A stretch of 30,684 nucleotides of DNA from Hyphochytrium catenoides (taxonomy: Eukaryota; Sar; Hyphochytriomycetes; Hyphochytriales; Hyphochytriaceae), in contig FLMG01004490.1 in assembly GCA_900088475.1 (NCBI GenBank), positions 8,461 to 39,144 of the forward strand. Reading direction: 5' to 3'. The notes beneath the pieces were generated by a model. It saw only the letters and a list, made by a program, of their open reading frames with translations. It had not been told where the DNA came from and made no database searches. The position numbers were made by a program, and so were the translations under genes. Positions 3,511-22,274 of this stretch are shown here, in pieces; positions within the stretch are counted from its first letter, which is position 1; the number at the start of each line of letters is the position of its first letter.

Positions 3511-5569
3511 ATGACGCTGTTGATAGACGGCGTCCCGGAGGGTGGAGATGTCCTTCGCATCCTTGCGATAGTCCTGGCTCTTTATCTGCTCTATCATGCG
3601 AGTTGGACTTATCATGTCATCAGGACCCTGCCCAGAGATCTCAGGTAAGCTTAGTACCCGTCGATGCGCTGATGAGCCTTCGTTGGTCCTATCGTCATTG
3701 CCGTCCTAACCCCTGGGTGCGCCTTTCTTTGGCTCACCATGGCGTTCCGCAGCGCCTTAATGACCTTCATCCATGTCACGGTCTCCATGAAACTCTTGGC
3801 GCGCCAGGGAAAAACAGTGCCGGAGCTCTTCGATGAGACGGCAGCCCGTCGGAAGGACGCGACCGCGATTATATTTGAAGATCAGCGCTGGACGTTCACG
3901 CAACTGCGGGATCGGACCAACGCCGTGGCGAACTACTTCAGCCGACAGGTAGCCCCTCCCTTGAGCTCTATGTTGGGAAGCCTCTAACAGCCTTGGGTAC
4001 GTGTTGCAGGGCTATAAGAAAGGCGACGTCGTCTCGCTGTTTATGGACCAGCGCCCCGAGTTTATTGCCTTCTGGTTAGGCCTTGCAAAGCTGGGAGTCC
4101 AGGTTGCGCTGATCAACTTTAACCTCCGCGGCGCCCCTCTTCGGCACTGCATCAGCACTGTGAGCTCCAGAGCCATTATCGTCGGAAGCGAGCTCTCTTC
4201 TTACCTAAAGGAGGTGCAAGGAGAGCTTGAAGGTGTGGAGGAGGTCTTTATCTCTGGTGGAAAGCAGGAAGGGTACAGAGCTGTGGACGAGGTGCTGAGT
4301 GCCGAGAGCACAGCGCCTGACTATCCGCGACACCCTGGTGATTTCCACGAGAAGCTGCTCTTTATCTTCACAAGTGGGACCACGGGCCTGCCCAAGGCCG
4401 CCATCGTCCGCAACGACCGGTTTTATTATCAGTTCAAAGCCATCAACGTCTTTTTCCGCATCCGCCCCGCGGACATTATCTACGTGACTCTGCCCATCTA
4501 CCATAGCGCAGGCGGAGTGGTTGGCGTGGGCAACATGCTCCTGGCGGGGGCCACGATTGTCCTCAAGAAGAAATTCTCCGCCAGTAACTTCTTCAAGGAC
4601 TGCACAGAGCACAAATGCACTGTCATCCAGTACATCGGAGAGATCGTGCGCTACCTCAACTCCACGGCGCCATCGCCGTACGATACAGCGCATAACGTGC
4701 GGGTGGCCATAGGGAATGGTCTCAATGGCAAGGTTTGGGCGGAGTTCCAGGAGCGCTTCCACATCCCACAAGTAGGAGAGTTCTATGGGGCGACGGAGGG
4801 CAACACAAGCATGGTAAACAGCGTCAACAGAACCGGCGCTTGCGGCTTCAACTCCATCTTCCTACCTTTCGTCTACCCAGTACGTACCGTGCGCTTTGAC
4901 GTGGAAAATGAAGAGCTAATCCGCGATAAGAGGGGATTTTGCATTCCATGCCGTCCAGGTGAGATTGGAGAGCTTATCGGCTATGTCAACATGAAGAGCC
5001 CGCTTCGTAAGTACGATGGCTACGTAGGCCAAGAGCATACACAGAAGAAGATTGCACGGGACGTCTTTCGCAAGGGTGACATCTGGTTCCGCACTGGAGA
5101 CCTGCTGATGATGGATGCAGACGGCTTCTACTATTTTAAGGACAGGATTGGGGACACTTTCAGGTGGAGGGGGGAGAATGTCTCGACTGCAGAAGTGGAG
5201 GAGGTCGTAGCCAGAGTTTTGAATAATAGCACACCTGTGGCCGTCTATGGCGTCCAAGTACCTGGCAGTGACGGCCGGGGCGGGATGTTGGCCATTGGCG
5301 GGGGTGAGGAGGAGCAAGTGGAGGGGTTGTACGAGAAGCTGAAGAGTCAGCTTCCTTCCTACGCCGTCCCACTCTTTATCCGGCTCCTGCAGTCGATGGA
5401 GACTACAGGGACTCACAAGATCGTCAAAACAACGCTGAAGCAGGAGGAGTTCCATCCCGCGCGTGTTGGCAAGGACCCGGTGCTGGTCCTGGACAGGAAA
5501 GAGGGCAAATACGTGCCTCTCGATGCCGCGCGGTACCAGCAGATTATGGCAGAGCAATGGAGGTTCTAG
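3511..5569 (+). CDS. Fatty acid transport protein / very-long-chain acyl-CoA synthetase (SLC27/FATP family)
   Basis: Exons 3511-3644, 3753-3948 and 4010-5569 (TAG) give 629 aa, the usual FATP length of about 620-650. The N-terminus has a hydrophobic anchor (VLRILAIVLALYLLYHASW, from about residue 14). The AMP-binding P-loop FIFTSGTTGLPKAAIV is at about 228-243. Further family signatures are YGATEGN, WFRTGDLLMMDADGFYYFKD, and IGDTFRWRGENVSTAEVEEV, which is diagnostic of FATP rather than ordinary acyl-CoA synthetases. The C-terminus has the ATP-dependent ligase Lys region (GTHKIVKTTLKQEEFHP). The enzyme couples fatty-acid uptake to ATP-dependent CoA thioester formation at the ER, peroxisome or plasma membrane. 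Start choice: this ATG opens the exon that carries the membrane anchor; the longer open frame upstream is low-complexity. It is convergent with GCP5, with 337 bp between stops. The FATP subtype cannot be assigned. Confidence 0.95.
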
Positions 5570-5906: not shown

Positions 5907-8900
5907 CTACGTGAAATAGTCGTTGAAGTTCAGTTGGCAGAGCGCCTCACTCAGGTACTGGGCGGCTTTGGTCCTGGCCATGGCTGTCAATATGATGATT
6001 ACGTATCGATTCGCCTTCATAAACTCGTCTGCCGTGTCTTGAGCTAGTGCGAGGTGCCGTGAGCGCTCCTGCTCCGTCATTCTGAGACCTGAAGGTGAAA
6101 GTAACACCGAGATCGTGAGATAAGGCAGAAATGGAAAGACTTTAAGGCAAGGGTGAACAGAATGGCATAGAGGACTCTAGGCAATCGGGAACTTGGCCGC
6201 AGATCATGCAGCAAGCACGAGAGGTTCAATGGTTTGGTTAGCGGACCTGACCTACCTTGACTGAGGTAGAGGGCAAGCTCCTGCCTAAACTTGATAGCAA
6301 GGTTCATCATGTCCCTGAGGTAGTGGAGCACCATCTTACTCCGCGGTACCAGGAAACAGCGCTCGAGAATAAGCTCTAGATACTCCTCATGGGCTCTCTT
6401 CAGGGCCTCCACTGTATCTGCTGCCTCTAATGCGGCCTCCAGTCGCTTCCAAGCGGTGTGAAGGACCTGGTTGAGCAGAAACGACTGCAACCCGCTGAGG
6501 AAGTGGAGAATTTGGCTTACTACGGCTAAGAGCCTATATCAGCAGGGCGAGACGAGATCTCAGTACAATAACAATGATTATCCGGAAGACGAGAACGTGA
6601 GATAGACACCACAGAGAGGAAGAGCAAAAGATGATCGGAAGGGCGCAGCTAGGTGGAATCTGGGAAAGGATTGTCCAGAGGGAAAGATCTACATGCCTGC
6701 GATGGGAAGGTGAAAGCACAAGCTTCTTCCTCGCCTCCAAGTGTAATTGATCGTACAGAGAGCGGACCCGCTTGACCTGCAGGAGGAGACGCATCGCGCT
6801 GTTATACTGCCGGAGAGACTCCTCGCTCAGGATCATCCTAAGAGGTCCTTCTACAACGTACTCAAACCGCAGCAGGGCCATGATGTTCACGTCTGAAGGG
6901 GGGCAGCGGGCGCCGGACTCTTCAACAGTGACTGAGAACCTATCAAACATCTGCCGGACGTGCTCGGGGTCCACCGAACGGTTGCGTTCCCTTTCAGCTA
7001 GACAGATGCTGCCATAGATTTGGCTGGTCAGTGTCTGAGAGAGAGAGGCACTCAACAGGTGATTCAGGACAAAGGAGTCCGCCCAAGAAACATCTCCGCT
7101 GTTAAGTCTGACGCAAACAAAGCGGACCAACGGCCCTAGCAACTCCTCGTCCGCCATGAAGAAAAATGACCGCATAGCTCTTAAGTGCGCTGCAAGCTGC
7201 AGACGGAGGAGGAACGAATCCCTCAGAGCTCTGTCTACTAGCTGGTAGTGATTCAGTACTGGTTGGCACAGCTGCTGGTCAAGCACGCGGGGCCATGAGG
7301 CCGTAGGGTCACCTAGCGCAGCCATCACACGGTCCGGCCAGCCTTCAAAAGTAAATAGCGTGTGATTGTCGGAACTGCCGCTTGAGAAGACGTGCCGCAG
7401 AAGATGCGCCTTCACCCCTACTTCATACAGGACCGGCGCGAGGTCAAGGAGGAAGGCTGGTATCGCCGCTTGATGTATGCCGAACTTGCTATCGCTCCTC
7501 CCTTCTTCAGCTGAGGTCAGAAGTGCGTCAACCTTGTGGATGAATATCTCTCCATTGAGATCCAGTAACTCCCCTCTCCGGATCCAGGGTTCGAAGATCT
7601 GGAGGTAGCAGGCTAAAGACTCTGAGAACACAGCAGCAAGCCGCTGGGATGGTGAACGCAACCTCTCAGACCCCGTGAAGGTTTCTTGGGCTCCTTTCCC
7701 AGCTAAGGTCCTGTGAAGAGACGTAAGGAGAGTCGCAGTCTGAGTCCTGCAGCCGTGTCCGTCCGAATCCCCTGATGTTAGGACGTGGCACTCCATAGCG
7801 CTACGAGCCACCCTACTTAGGGCTGCGAAGGTGTCCAAGTCTTGCTCCAGCAGTGACAAGAGCTCCAGCACTGACATTTCCCCATCGGCACTCAAGTCCA
7901 GGAGCCGTTCCTCAAACTCCTCTACTAGACTGGACAATGCGCCACTCATTGCCCTCACGGTGGAGGAACCTCTGCCCTCATTAGCCAGCTCAGCACAGGA
8001 AAGTACAAAGTCTCTGCACGGCTGCAGATAGTTCGCCAACTCCAAGAAGCGCTGGAGCACCTCAGAGCAAAGCGATGGCGAAAGTCCGGCGAAGGCGATC
8101 GCTCCAAGCTGCTCCTTCCTCTTGAACCAGCGATAACCTTGTGAAGCAGTATCTTCCTCAAAGATGACGGCCGGGAAACCTCGAAGAAGCCAGTGCAGAA
8201 GCTGTACCATCCGTACCTCTGGGAAGATCTTACAGGGCAAACATAGGCCAAGGGACTGAGAGGGATCACTAAGAGGGCTGGCGGGACGAAGAGTCTCCTG
8301 CCAAAGCCGCCGCTCGTCTCCAAAGCCAAAGGAAAGCCCGGTCACCTCTTCAAGTGTCATTTGTTTTAGCTGTGCACTTAACTCTGGAAGGGTCGGGCTT
8401 GTCTCGACCTCCTCGTCATGTCCAGCAGCGCCATCTTGGCTGCGAGGCTCAATGGGAACAGGTAGATCCTCAACTGGCGGGTCCTCATGATCCGAGAGGC
8501 CCGAGTGCTCCCAAGTGGATGTGCTGTCTGAGCCGCAGCTGTCCTCCGACGATAGGTTCTGTTCCTCATCCAGAGCTTGTGGCTTCTCTTCAGCAATGAG
8601 CGTCCCATCGGTGAGCTCGAGCTCAAACTCGTCGAAGGGCTCCGAGAGCGATGTGGGCCGATCCGAAAGCAGGAGTAACAACCGGAGGATGTCCTAGAGG
8701 ACCAAGACCGGTAAGAAAGGACGGTCATTGGCCACGAAGAGTAGTGATCTTGGCCCGAAGACACTGTTAACGCGGTGAAACTTACGTGTGCGAAGGGATC
8801 TTTGGGTCCGACCCGCTTCAATAAGACTTCCACCTTGGCCCATAAGCGCATGGCCAGCGTAGGCTAGAGGCAGCAGGTTAGCAGTGGAAAGGCTTTAGGG

Positions 8901-18052: not shown

Positions 18053-21000
18053 TTACAGTCCTGGGCCATCAATGCTGGCTACCGTTCCTTTCTTGGCGCT
18101 TGACTGCATTATGAAGGTCGTCGCCGCTTCCGTCCTCACAAACCTTTGAAAGGTGGGAAGCAGCAGACTGAGAACTTCCTTCTCCAGAACCTTGGCTGTC
18201 TCCTCAAGTTCCGTGCTACTCATCAGCACCTTGCCTCGGCCGCTATCCTTGCTCCGTATTACCTTCCTTAGGTCAGCAGAGATGTTGAGCTCACAAGGCG
18301 ATTGCAAGGCAATGTACTTGATCACTATCTCCTTGAAGATAAGAGCACGTTTCTCCGGCTGCTCTACCTCGAAAAAGCGAGACAGATCCTCCCAGGCCAA
18401 GAGGTTCTCCTCAGCCATTTGCTGCACGAGGAACTGTCGGAACTTGGTTTTGAGCAGCAGATCCGACACTAGCGCCTGCTTCAGCTGCTCACAGGTCGCA
18501 ACAGAGGAGAGAAGCTCAAAGTTCCTAGGGTAGAGGAGAGAGAGAATGTCGGCATGTAGAGGAAGGAGGGAATGTTGGCATGAGACGCGTCCCAGCATAG
18601 CGGAATGGGAGACAAAATGAAAGAGAAAGAAACTCGTGGAAACCCGCAGGAGGGAAAAGGAGAGAACCCAAGCTCCTATGAACGCGGCGGTAATTAGGGA
18701 AAGAGGAATGAGAGGGCAGTCATACGAGGGAGGCTGGTTGAAAGGCATAGAAGATAAACTTACATATGATGCCGACTCTGCACGGCGTATGTCCCCGACC
18801 TTGACACCCTGCTGGCGATCAGCTTTGGCAGGAACCAGGCCAGCTGGAAGACCGTGATCTCAAGAAGGACTGCGTGCTGGAGAAAGATCTGAGGTCCCAG
18901 AGGGTACATGTCAATCGTCAGCCCCAGATAGAGCCTGATCGACTCAAAGCCAAAGAGAACTACGGCTGCCAGGCGGAACTGGCGGACGTGAGGCATATAC
19001 CTCGCCAGGTCGCTGGTCTGGAAGAGCAGAAAGGCAAGTGAGGCGCCAAGAACTACCTTCCATATCGCCACAAAGTACGCCACACGCTGAGGCCGGAACC
19101 GAGTGGGCACCCCGACTATCCATTGACTCATAATGGTTACCTCGGTCAAGGGTCTGGCGGCTGCGGGATCCTCTACAATATCAAAGAAAGAGCTTATGGC
19201 CGACGCAGCATAGATGAACGGAAGTCCCACGGCGATCGCGCGTTGCAGCTTCCTCATCTTTTTCAGAGAGTGCGGCGACCGCAATGCACTTTCATCTCCG
19301 CCCAGAAAGCCGAACTTAAGGATGGCAATGGGCGCAGAGATTGTGCTGATTATCAGCGTGGCGAGGAGCCCATCGAGTATGAAGGCGTAGTCATATGGGT
19401 CCATCGCGGGAGGCACCCACAGGAAGAAGACGAGGCACGCTTGAGCTAGCAAGGAGCCCAACAGGATGGTTTGCGATGGGATGCCTGCTGCCATGAAAGC
19501 GTTCTCTCGGCGGTGACGGACCAAAGCTCCCAGCAGAAGAGCTGTGCTCAGGAAGGTGACAGCAAAGTGGCAGATGAGACCGCTTGAGTCGGCTGAGCCT
19601 AGGACTAAGTGGTTACACTCGATCGCGTTTGCAGGCAAAAGAGTTTGCCCATGGAGGCAGTGACTCTCTGGCTTCCAGTTGAACGTCACAAGTAGACTCT
19701 GCTCGTCTGTGACGCACTGTGACCCCAGCGTGGGCTGCATATCTGACAGTTGGCAGAGCGGCTCGGGCTCTAAGACGGAGTATTGTCCTACCCGGATCTT
19801 TCTCAACAGCTTGCGGCTCAGCTCTTGGGCTTCAGCTGTGGGCGGGATTGCGATGTCGAGGTCCGTGTTCAGGGCCCACTTGGCAAAAGAAGCATACACA
19901 AACGCAAGAGAGTGGTAATCTTCCTGCCAGTGTCTCCGTATCGCGATATTGAAGGCTGAGGCTATGGGCCAGCAGCCAGCTTCCTCATAGACTGGGCTGA
20001 CGGGCTTGAAGATCAGCCCGGTTGCCCCTTCAAGGGGCTTGTTGTCCTCGTCCTCTGACACTGAGTCATACAGCTTTGCTCCTGGAATGCCCGCCTGACA
20101 GGCCTTCAACTGAAGAGATGAGCTGGACAGCGGTCCTCTCCCCCGGGTGCTTTCGCCGTTATCGCTGCTGGGGACAGGCAGAAGCAGGTCCAGCGTGCTC
20201 TGGAAGATCTCAGGAGAGGTCCACACCAGCCCCAGCCCGCCAACCGTGGACGTGACTGCGGCAGTCACTAACTCATCTCGAACCATTGCACGGATATTGG
20301 TGCTGCCCTCAAGGAGGCGGGTTGTGAGGCCGTTGCAGTCATGGAAAAAGCCAGAGTCCACAGCGTCAAGAACCGTGCAGACTGTCTGGGCTAAGAGAGT
20401 GCGTGGACCGTCAAGATAGAGTTGAATAGATACTGAGGGTAGGCTAGCACTTGGGTTCAGAGCCTGAATTTTCCCGTCATTCCACTACCATATCGTGCCC
20501 TTTAGAATCTCTCCTAGCACCTCCAGAGAAACATTGAGCCGAGCGACTCCTTGCAAGTTGAATATCAAAGACACGGGAAGTGTGAAGAGAGGCAAGAGCA
20601 CGTGATCCTGGAAGCCCGCGGAGGCTAAAGAGAAGCTCTGGCTGGCAAAAATGGACAAATTGCTTGCCATTCCTAAGCCTATATCCTCGATCAACGGACC
20701 AGACCTGAGGTTCGAGCCCGCTTCCTTATTAAAGCCATCATAGTAAGAGGCCAGGAAGGTATCGAGGAAGAGTCCTGGCAGCCCAACGACTGGCCCCAAG
20801 TCCTTCTTAGCCAATTGCACTAGAGAGCAAGCATCCACCGAGCAGTCTGTGACTCGATCTGTACCAAGATTACTGGGGGCACAAAGGATCTTTGTCTGTA
20901 CGTCTGCGTCGATAAAGCTTCGAAAGTATTCAGTGAGCGTTGAGAAGCCCGTCGCCCTAGCGATGTCACTGAACTGTTGGCTGGTCAGCGCCCAGTGAAT

Positions 21001-22274
21001 CCATTCCAGCATGGCCTGCCGCTCATGGCAGGTGTTCATGGTGACGTTGGTTCTAAAAATAAGATAGGAAATGGAGATGATAGGCCAGCCGCCGCTGGCA
21101 CTGGTGTCGATAACAGGGGCCCTCCAATGTTCGTCGAACTGGGCCTCAACCCAGACCAGTGAGGCCATGACGGAGTCTGACGAGGCTACGACAGGTGTCC
21201 CAGCTCTGTTCATGAGACGAGCGACTGGCAGATGATAAGTGGAAGCTTCACTGAGAACAACATAGCCGATGCTGTAGGGCGTGCTTTGCACCTGGAGGCA
21301 GCAGGTGATGAGTCGAGTAAGTCTTCACTGTCCCTTGTTGTTTCTTCCGTCTCCTCCTCATCAAACAAAAAGCTTAACTTACCGTCACTGCAACGCCTGC
21401 CGTCCCCTTCGCCTCGTAGTATCGCCAAGTCCAGCCCTGGCCATCCCTGCAGGTCACCTCATTGAACGTCCCCGTGCCTGCCAGGCGGCTAGCGTTTGCT
21501 TCTGGACCGCACCATCGAGGCTGCTGAGACGAGGGCACTCGCTGGCTGAAGACTGTATCAAAGGATCCGAGCGCTGATGTCATGACTTGAGACGTTCCTG
21601 AGGAGTCCTGTCTCACGACCAGGGTGATGGGATAATCGATAGGCTCCAAGCCTGGGTTCAGGGCTTTTATCTCAGGATCATTCCACCTGCAGAAGAAAGG
21701 AGAACAAAAGCCGAACCCATACTAAGAGACTGCAGACCCGCCGCCGAAAGGAAAGGAACCGAGCACTAGCAACGCGAGCAGCTTCTTCCACTTACCACGT
21801 GATAGCGCCCCTGAAGATACGAGCCAACACCTCGCGAGATAGGAGGAGATCCTTTACACCTGGCAGATTGAATACTGGCACCACGGCTGAGAGACAGAGG
21901 GGAACCTGCATTAGGTCCGTGTAGGTGGCAAAGTCACTGCTATCTAGCGGAGCATCTACCACACCAAAAGCTGAGAGATTCGAAAGGAGCTTGGTCTTCC
22001 CAGCCCCAGATCCCACGGGATCATAGTTAATGCGTGTTGGGATCTCCCCAGCTGAAGTGCTGGAGGTGAACTGATGGTATAGGCGGTTAACTCGTCTCAG
22101 GAGATCTGTGGGAAGCGTGCCTCCCGCCACGTAGAGAGACACAGGGGGAGGATTCTGAGGGCTTCCATCAGCCTCTCCTGTGCTTAGGGTTAAACCGGAG
22201 CTCCTAGTAGGAAGCCAGAGTGAAGAGCTCATGAAGAGGAGACATGGGAGGATCCTGAGACAGATATTTCGCAT
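18053..22274 (-). CDS. Receptor with two PstS-like domains, seven membrane segments and an RGS domain; in-frame TAG
   Basis: Exons 22274-21796, 21686-21383, 21291-18764 and 18524-18053 (TAA) join in phase to 1261 codons. An internal TAG occupies codon 530 (20487-20485). Residues 1-27 look like a signal peptide. PstS-like domain 1 spans about 45-400, with GSGAG (88-92), VVDAPL (Asp107) and RQDSSGT (185-191), matching the phosphate-binding residues of bacterial PstS, then SIGYVVLSEA. Domain 2 (about 425-800) keeps the fold pattern (LEVLGEILKGTIW, WNDGKIQALNP) but not the ligand motif. Seven hydrophobic segments lie at about 832-1092. Residues 1104-1235 form an RGS domain (EENLLAWEDLSRFFEV, CELNISADLRKVI, LLLPTFQRFVRTE). 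RGS domains accelerate GTP hydrolysis by G-alpha. I infer a plasma-membrane phosphate or anion sensor linked to G-protein signalling. The TAG could mean a pseudogene, a sequence error or readthrough. Confidence 0.88.
20485..20487 (-). other. In-frame TAG inside the receptor's second PstS-like domain
   Basis: The frame is open on both sides. The upstream part ends LEVLGEILKGTIW and the downstream part begins WNDGKIQALNP. Aligned with domain 1 (GAITWWNDP), the TAG occupies the position of the first Trp, so one G-to-A change of TGG explains it. The codon also falls at the position where domain 1 carries its intron. No intron of plausible size can remove it without losing conserved sequence. Confidence 0.85.

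Follow-up and report, generated by a model that had tools for sequence, protein, structure and literature searches.

A gene on the minus strand (22274–18053) of a 30,684-nucleotide stretch of the Hyphochytrium catenoides genome (contig FLMG01004490.1, positions 8,461 to 39,144; hereafter the window, to which all residue, codon and position numbers refer) is predicted to encode, from N to C terminus, a hydrophobic signal peptide-like start, two tandem periplasmic-binding protein (PBP) domains related to PstS, a Cys linker, seven hydrophobic segments (7TM; residues about 834–1087) and an RGS domain. This PBP-PBP-7TM-RGS order is very probably genuine, and a second gene of the same genome, on contig C365, repeats it. 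On sequence grounds, the two genes form a divergent, RGS-carrying subfamily of the class C G-protein-coupled receptors (GPCRs). The best explanation overall, which we regard as evenly poised between right and wrong, is a derived class C GPCR with two tandem PstS-like domains, a Cys module, a 7TM region and a cytoplasmic RGS domain, acting as a phosphate-controlled receptor-GTPase-activating protein (receptor-GAP).

Gene model and domain architecture

The gene was modelled with four exons, starting with ATG at 22274 and ending with TAA at 18053, and all three introns start with GTAAG and end with AG. The spliced model has 1260 codons, counting in a TAG at codon 530. Exon 1 (22274–21796) contains the signal peptide-like start and the N-terminal half of PstS-like domain 1 (best E 2.5e-8 in matches to PstS chains), exon 2 (21686–21383) continues domain 1 with the RxDxSGTS phosphate-binding motif, as placed by PstS structure matches and the ligand alignment, and exon 3 (21291–18764) comprises, by the gene model and paralog profiles, the end of domain 1, PBP domain 2, the Cys linker and the membrane segments. 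Within exon 3, the linker with its four conserved Cys and the divergent class C-like 7TM occupy 19797–18764 (Pfam, paralog profile). A phase-2 intron (18763–18525) then separates the 7TM from exon 4 (18524–18053), to which the RGS domain and the C-terminal tail were assigned by Pfam and structure matches. All of these features lie on the minus strand.

The first-pass annotation, made from the letters alone, had proposed a signal peptide, two PstS-like domains, seven segments and a C-terminal RGS domain in this order, and had placed the gene ends at 18053 and 22274; the order was borne out by the spliced model together with Pfam and paralog profiles, and the ends are those of the spliced model. 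Its claim of one spliced frame held as to the four exons and their GTAAG...AG introns, but not as to continuity, since the TAG interrupts the frame.

Paralog with the same domain order

Genome searches were performed on a set of 42.5 Mb in 1105 contigs (C-numbers are contigs and L-numbers loci of this set). The published assembly is reported with 65.7 Mb in 4758 scaffolds (PMC5795050), and the searched set differs from it or is a filtered version of it. On C365, a frame of 1132 codons without a stop covers both PBP domains and the 7TM, with two PBP_like_2 stretches and a 7tm_3 match of 33.3 bits by hmmscan (E 5.1e-8; cut-off 33.5) and 37.6 bits in the genome search; the RGS exon was recognised by Pfam at E 1.4e-12. 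After splicing, 1288 codons are obtained, free of stops, with the first Met at codon 10.

Between the window gene and C365, identity was 96/326 in PBP domain 1 (z 17.7), 75/295 in domain 2 (z 5.8), 75/327 in linker plus 7TM (z 10.9), 58/257 in the 7TM alone (z 7.0) and 46/120 aligned residues in the RGS domain (z 18.1), the z values of the membrane parts being inflated because shuffling breaks hydrophobic runs. The intron before the RGS domain has phase 2 in both genes, and in both the junction residue is separated from the aligned 'KFR' by 26 residues. As both the order and the intron are shared with C365, the RGS fusion predates the duplication and is not an artefact of joined neighbours in the window. 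The same order, which the first-pass annotation had suggested looking for elsewhere, was found in the organism's own genome.

Binding domains and ligand

Pfam was run on two pieces of the window gene, split at the TAG. Domain 1 was assigned to PBP_like_2 above the cut-off (E 3.5e-24), so that the ectodomain is of type II and not a type I Venus-flytrap. Against PstS structures, its best E was 1.6e-29, and 19 of 19 matched sequences are named phosphate-binding or phosphate-transport proteins, which confirms the proposed PstS kinship. Domain 2 did not reach PBP_like_2 in Pfam (E 0.24); it matched, at E 3.5e-12, a profile of PstS and six other first domains (best of 1000 shuffles 2.8 bits) and, at E 6.1e-35, one built from seven other second domains (best of 1000 shuffles 5.7 bits), and by profile it classifies as a PBP.

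Conservation of the binding site was assessed at eight positions (T10, F11, S38, D56, R135, S139, G140 and T141) that we take to be the phosphate ligands of PstS and whose letters agree with the E. coli K-12 protein. In the window gene, domain 1 is identical at seven of them; at the eighth, F11, which presumably contacts phosphate through the backbone, it has Leu. Six other first domains in this alignment, which does not include those of C183 and the middle C896 gene, have 2–4 of the eight (C365 four), and eight second domains have 0–2 (window domain 2 one). Because seven PstS ligands are found in domain 1 of the window gene against 2–4 in the others, a phosphate-type anion is its likeliest ligand, an assignment that we consider fairly probable and that agrees with the phosphate or related anion first suggested for it. 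The paralogs, including C365, perhaps have a different ligand.

An alternative is a transporter-like protein that imports phosphate, as has been proposed for Plasmodiophora fusions of PBP_like_2 and 7tm_3, which are named as a transporter class, four of them as phosphate transporters, in the passages concerned of PMC4815078. For the window gene, however, the RGS domain fits G-protein control, and neither a permease nor an ATPase domain was found in the Pfam scan of its pieces. The 7tm_3 family is a receptor fold for which we know of no transport activity, which further counts against import, and this alternative is hardly probable at all.

Seven-segment region, RGS domain and output

The relationship of the seven-segment region to class C was examined with a profile of Cys linker plus 7TM, built from six non-RGS paralogs, which the window gene matched with 55.9 bits (E 2.3e-16) and C365 with 30.5 bits (E 1.2e-8); among 1000 shuffled sequences, 500 each from the window gene and C365, the highest score was 7.9 bits. 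The non-RGS paralogs scored 94.7–142.3 bits with 7tm_3 in five of five frames scanned, and the 7TM of one C896 paralog (E 1.1e-16) and of C183 (E 4.9e-12) matched GABA-B2 structures. A loose class C resemblance had been noticed at the outset and is strengthened by these paralogs. The accompanying contrast, by which the binding fold of class C GPCRs is a type I Venus-flytrap instead, fails as a general rule, as type II PBP_like_2 on 7tm_3 is in print and occurs in 8 or 9 genes here.

Transmembrane segment (TM) 7 carries 'PKL' in both the window gene and C365. In TM6, all six aligned non-RGS paralogs have 'SEAK' opposite 'NDSK' of GABA-B, whereas the window gene has 'PHVR' and C365 'PNGR'. The Cys pair of TM3 and extracellular loop 2 (ECL2) is absent from the window gene and kept, as judged by eye, in C365 and six other aligned paralogs, C604 being ambiguous in ECL2.

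The RGS domain of the window gene, which lies after the TAG, was found by Pfam at E 8.6e-10 (39.5 bits; cut-off 23.9), and its only two structure matches at 0.001 were RGS3 (E 2.4e-4) and RGS5 (E 6e-4). In the alignment with these, the EEN and CELN stretches are retained, of which EEN and the N position are presumably functional in RGS domains. Among the domain searches proposed initially, the RGS and PBP_like_2 assignments were thus upheld by Pfam; 7tm_3 stayed below its cut-off.

Since both the window gene and C365 lack the 'EAK' motif of TM6, a receptor-GAP is suggested rather than a guanine-nucleotide exchange factor, a tentative preference that falls just short of an even chance. In the proposed mechanism, orthophosphate or a close anion would close domain 1, and domain 2, its ligand residues lost, would be structural or relay the closure. 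The 7TM, without the class C coupling motif in TM6, would no longer act mainly as an exchange factor but would control whether the tethered RGS domain engages G-alpha. Outside phosphate would in this way tune G-alpha deactivation, with a receptor-GAP logic as proposed for plant AtRGS1; the G-alphas encoded on C746 and C559 could be the partners. The complete proposition is a nutrient receptor with inverted sign, in which a phosphate receptor of class C would have shed the exchange-factor motif and acquired a covalently attached GAP domain, so that extracellular phosphate would directly set G-alpha deactivation within one polypeptide; it is put forward as less likely than not.

An ordinary exchange-factor GPCR of class C, in which the tethered RGS domain merely shortens the receptor's own signal, would fit the class C kinship, and self-desensitising fusions appear mechanistically plausible. 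The 'EAK' of TM6 is, however, gone from both RGS members and kept in the six other aligned paralogs, and the window gene additionally lacks the TM3/ECL2 Cys pair; we consider the exchange-factor alternative unlikely, but by no means negligible.

Several results weigh against the derived class C receptor-GAP as described. As assembled, the window gene has no continuously open frame. Its 7TM matched Pfam 7tm_3 over profile positions 10–251 of 251 but at E 0.02, with 15 bits against the cut-off of 33.5, and the genome search with 7tm_3 (PF00003), which gave 18 places at E 0.01 or better, did not return it. With a profile of the 7TM only, built from seven paralogs, the window gene scored 6.1 bits and C365 7.0, the best of 1000 shuffles 8.4; in a genome search with 7TM plus RGS of the window gene, 11 of 11 outside matches fell in the RGS domain or its approach and none over the 7TM. 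The losses of 'EAK' and of the Cys pair were read from an alignment in which the placement of the window 7TM is itself uncertain. In the last RGS helix, the window gene has Pro at the position aligned by eye with what we take to be D163 of RGS4, where C365 has Asp. Two structure predictions of the product (AlphaFold without alignment) were poor, with mean confidence scores (pLDDT) of 42.7 and 45.3, too low to support fold searches. As the 7TM alone does not rise above shuffles, the case for class C descent depends on the linker, C365 and the weak but full-length Pfam match.

In-frame stop codon

The TAG (20485–20487, minus strand), which the first-pass annotation does not mention, was located from the list of open reading frames and the gene model. 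It falls in PBP domain 2, at a conserved 'WND' stretch, between two neighbours of the same frame (21324–20485 and 20484–18760). A bypass by splicing was searched with a GTRNG donor up to 400 bases before the TAG, an acceptor with 8/12 pyrimidines up to 400 bases after it and an intron of at least 45 bases; within these limits no frame-preserving donor/acceptor pair was found, and a GTRAG donor is absent within 450 bases in exon 3. Codon bias, trained on six paralog frames including C365, was positive in frame in all four parts tested before and after the TAG (z 5.4 to 9.1 against shuffles), among them the three downstream of it. The TAG is the single lesion in 1260 codons, and splice sites and frame are intact downstream of it.

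Translation of the assembled copy would end after codon 529 and give no more than a soluble domain 1. One alternative is a phosphate-binding protein that is secreted in soluble form, with the 7TM-RGS part silent or a separate product; the signal peptide-like start and the whole of domain 1 lie within residues 1–529. The stop, however, splits domain 2 in its conserved WND region, the next frame starts in mid-domain, and C365 is one uninterrupted model, which makes such a product improbable.

Certain protists recode TAG, and reading through or decoding it as an amino acid would give the full protein and would agree with the continuous frame and the coding bias on both sides. Selenocysteine tRNAs read TGA and not TAG, and the one in this genome would not serve here. 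Its presence was reported with the genome (PMC5795050). In addition, neither TAG nor any other stop codon occurs in the 6070 codons of the six paralog frames, which argues weakly that TAG is not a sense codon, as these frames were chosen for being open. Read-through is quite improbable.

The window gene could also be a decaying pseudogene, with C365 alone functional. The TAG in a domain core and the absence of both the TM3 and the ECL2 Cys, kept in C365 in the alignment by eye, speak for decay, but the lesion is single, splice sites, frame and codon bias are preserved downstream, and of the seven first domains aligned, that of the window gene has the best-preserved phosphate site. Moreover, 96% two-way single-nucleotide polymorphisms (SNPs) are described for the genome, their frequency being about 0.0275 (PMC5795050), a level at which an allelic nonsense change is possible. 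Decay is judged unlikely, with a weight that is still considerable. The preferred reading of the TAG is that it is probably a recent or allele-specific nonsense change.

Family members in the genome and neighbouring genes

Profile searches of the genome gave 44 stretches for PF00615 (RGS), 18 for PF00003 at E 0.01 or better and 11 for PF12849. Nine genes were counted as receptors with type II PBP ectodomains, located on C995, C604, C858, C896 (three genes), C183, C365 and in the window; on C183 the second domain alone was seen, for which Pfam gave no family, so that this gene is filed by alignment only. Seven of the nine are class C paralogs without RGS, and tandem domains were seen in six of these seven. 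Only two of the nine (window, C365) have a nearby RGS match in the correct orientation; the match at C183 is on the opposite strand, the one on C896 is separated from the closest receptor by about 20 kb, and the RGS search gave none for C995, C604 and C858. Three tandem-PBP class C receptor genes (L044–L046) cluster in a region of about 20 kb on C896, not all in the same orientation.

The 7tm_3 genes of C633 and C594 (L068, L069) carry two tandem type I domains (Peripla_BP_6, ANF_receptor) in one chain, C913 being alike by eye; doubled ectodomains thus occur here with type I as well as with type II domains. C197, C433, C438, C361 and C1006 fall outside this classification. Of the eight RGS places with the strongest matches, C365 is one; six others (L001, L003, L005–L008) show membrane-like segments, either in the RGS frame itself or in one upstream, and L002 shows none. 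These results suggest that H. catenoides has a 7TM-RGS family of considerable size. At least two G-alpha genes are present, near-complete on C746 and C559; a third place, on C1089, exceeded the cut-off only with its neighbours. By term counts, GPCR, RGS, 7TM and G-protein do not occur in the main text of the genome paper (PMC5795050).

Opsin genes were seen on C887 and C585, the two-exon gene on C585 being identical to HcKCR2 (PDB 8h87) over the aligned part, which extends to residue 262, barring three query letters at the exon join (one V and the XX filler). The match identifies the searched genome as that of H. catenoides, or of an organism that this gene does not distinguish from it. In the window, a frame for an AMP-binding, acyl-CoA synthetase-like enzyme (Pfam AMP-binding 1.7e-43) lies at 3965–5566 on the plus strand, and two adjacent frames at 6080–8693 on the minus strand belong to a gene for a gamma-tubulin complex component (GCP_N_terminal, GCP_C_terminal).

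Relation to known systems

Both constituents of the window gene are known, and it combines two described kinds of protein. PBP_like_2 on 7tm_3 is in print for Spizellomyces punctatus (SPPG_06488; PMC3251606) and Plasmodiophora brassicae (PMC4815078); these fusions share the type II ectodomain on a class C 7TM with the window gene, but in the passages concerned they are described without RGS, as transporters or glutamate-family receptors. The term 'RGS' does not occur in the main text of PMC4815078 and occurs once in PMC3251606, in its reference list. The former suggests, in the part concerned, that P. brassicae alone has fusions of this kind, which fails here. Diatoms, stramenopiles like H. 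catenoides, are credited with seven class C receptors with PBP-like N termini, three of them resembling the periplasmic part of ATP-binding cassette (ABC) sugar transporters; a figure legend, however, names PBP1 (type I), and the sections concerned describe no RGS fusion (PMC3727952). Bacterial PstS shares its fold family and seven of the eight phosphate ligands with domain 1 but is a soluble subunit of an ABC importer.

On the side of the 7TM-RGS proteins, the window gene follows the pattern of plant AtRGS1 (PMC3386157), 28 putative proteins of Naegleria fowleri (PMC9283941) and MoRgs7 (PMC6405168), with seven hydrophobic segments followed by an RGS domain above the cut-off, both encoded after the TAG. 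These proteins share the C-terminal RGS domain and the receptor-GAP logic with it, but a large binding ectodomain is not described for them in the passages cited. GPR158 is a class C receptor with GAP and not exchange-factor output through RGS7-Gbeta5, as outlined in PMC8611064; there, however, RGS is a separate protein and the ectodomain has a PAS fold. The GPCR-bigrams of oomycetes, a related stramenopile lineage, likewise join a 7TM to a C-terminal signalling domain, but their accessory domains are given as PIPK, INPP, AC, PDE and TKL, an RGS fusion being mentioned for plants in the section concerned (PMC6033456). Tandem type II PBP domains combined with a class C 7TM and RGS were not found in the literature searched, and related RGS architectures may be shown by De Mendoza et al. 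2014. Apparently new here is the addition of RGS to PBP_like_2 and 7tm_3, seen in this genome solely in the window gene and C365.

To our knowledge, few extracellular phosphate receptors of eukaryotes are established, and the ligands of 7TM-RGS proteins are largely unknown. The proposed model case from plants is a sugar-regulated 7TM-RGS protein (PMC3386157), whereas in the window gene the ectodomain itself would predict the ligand. If the receptor-GAP reading is correct, one protein would allow the identity of the ligand (by homology to PstS), the class of receptor and the sign of the output (GAP) to be proposed and tested one part at a time, and the gene would show class C receptors changing their output through the gain of an RGS domain.

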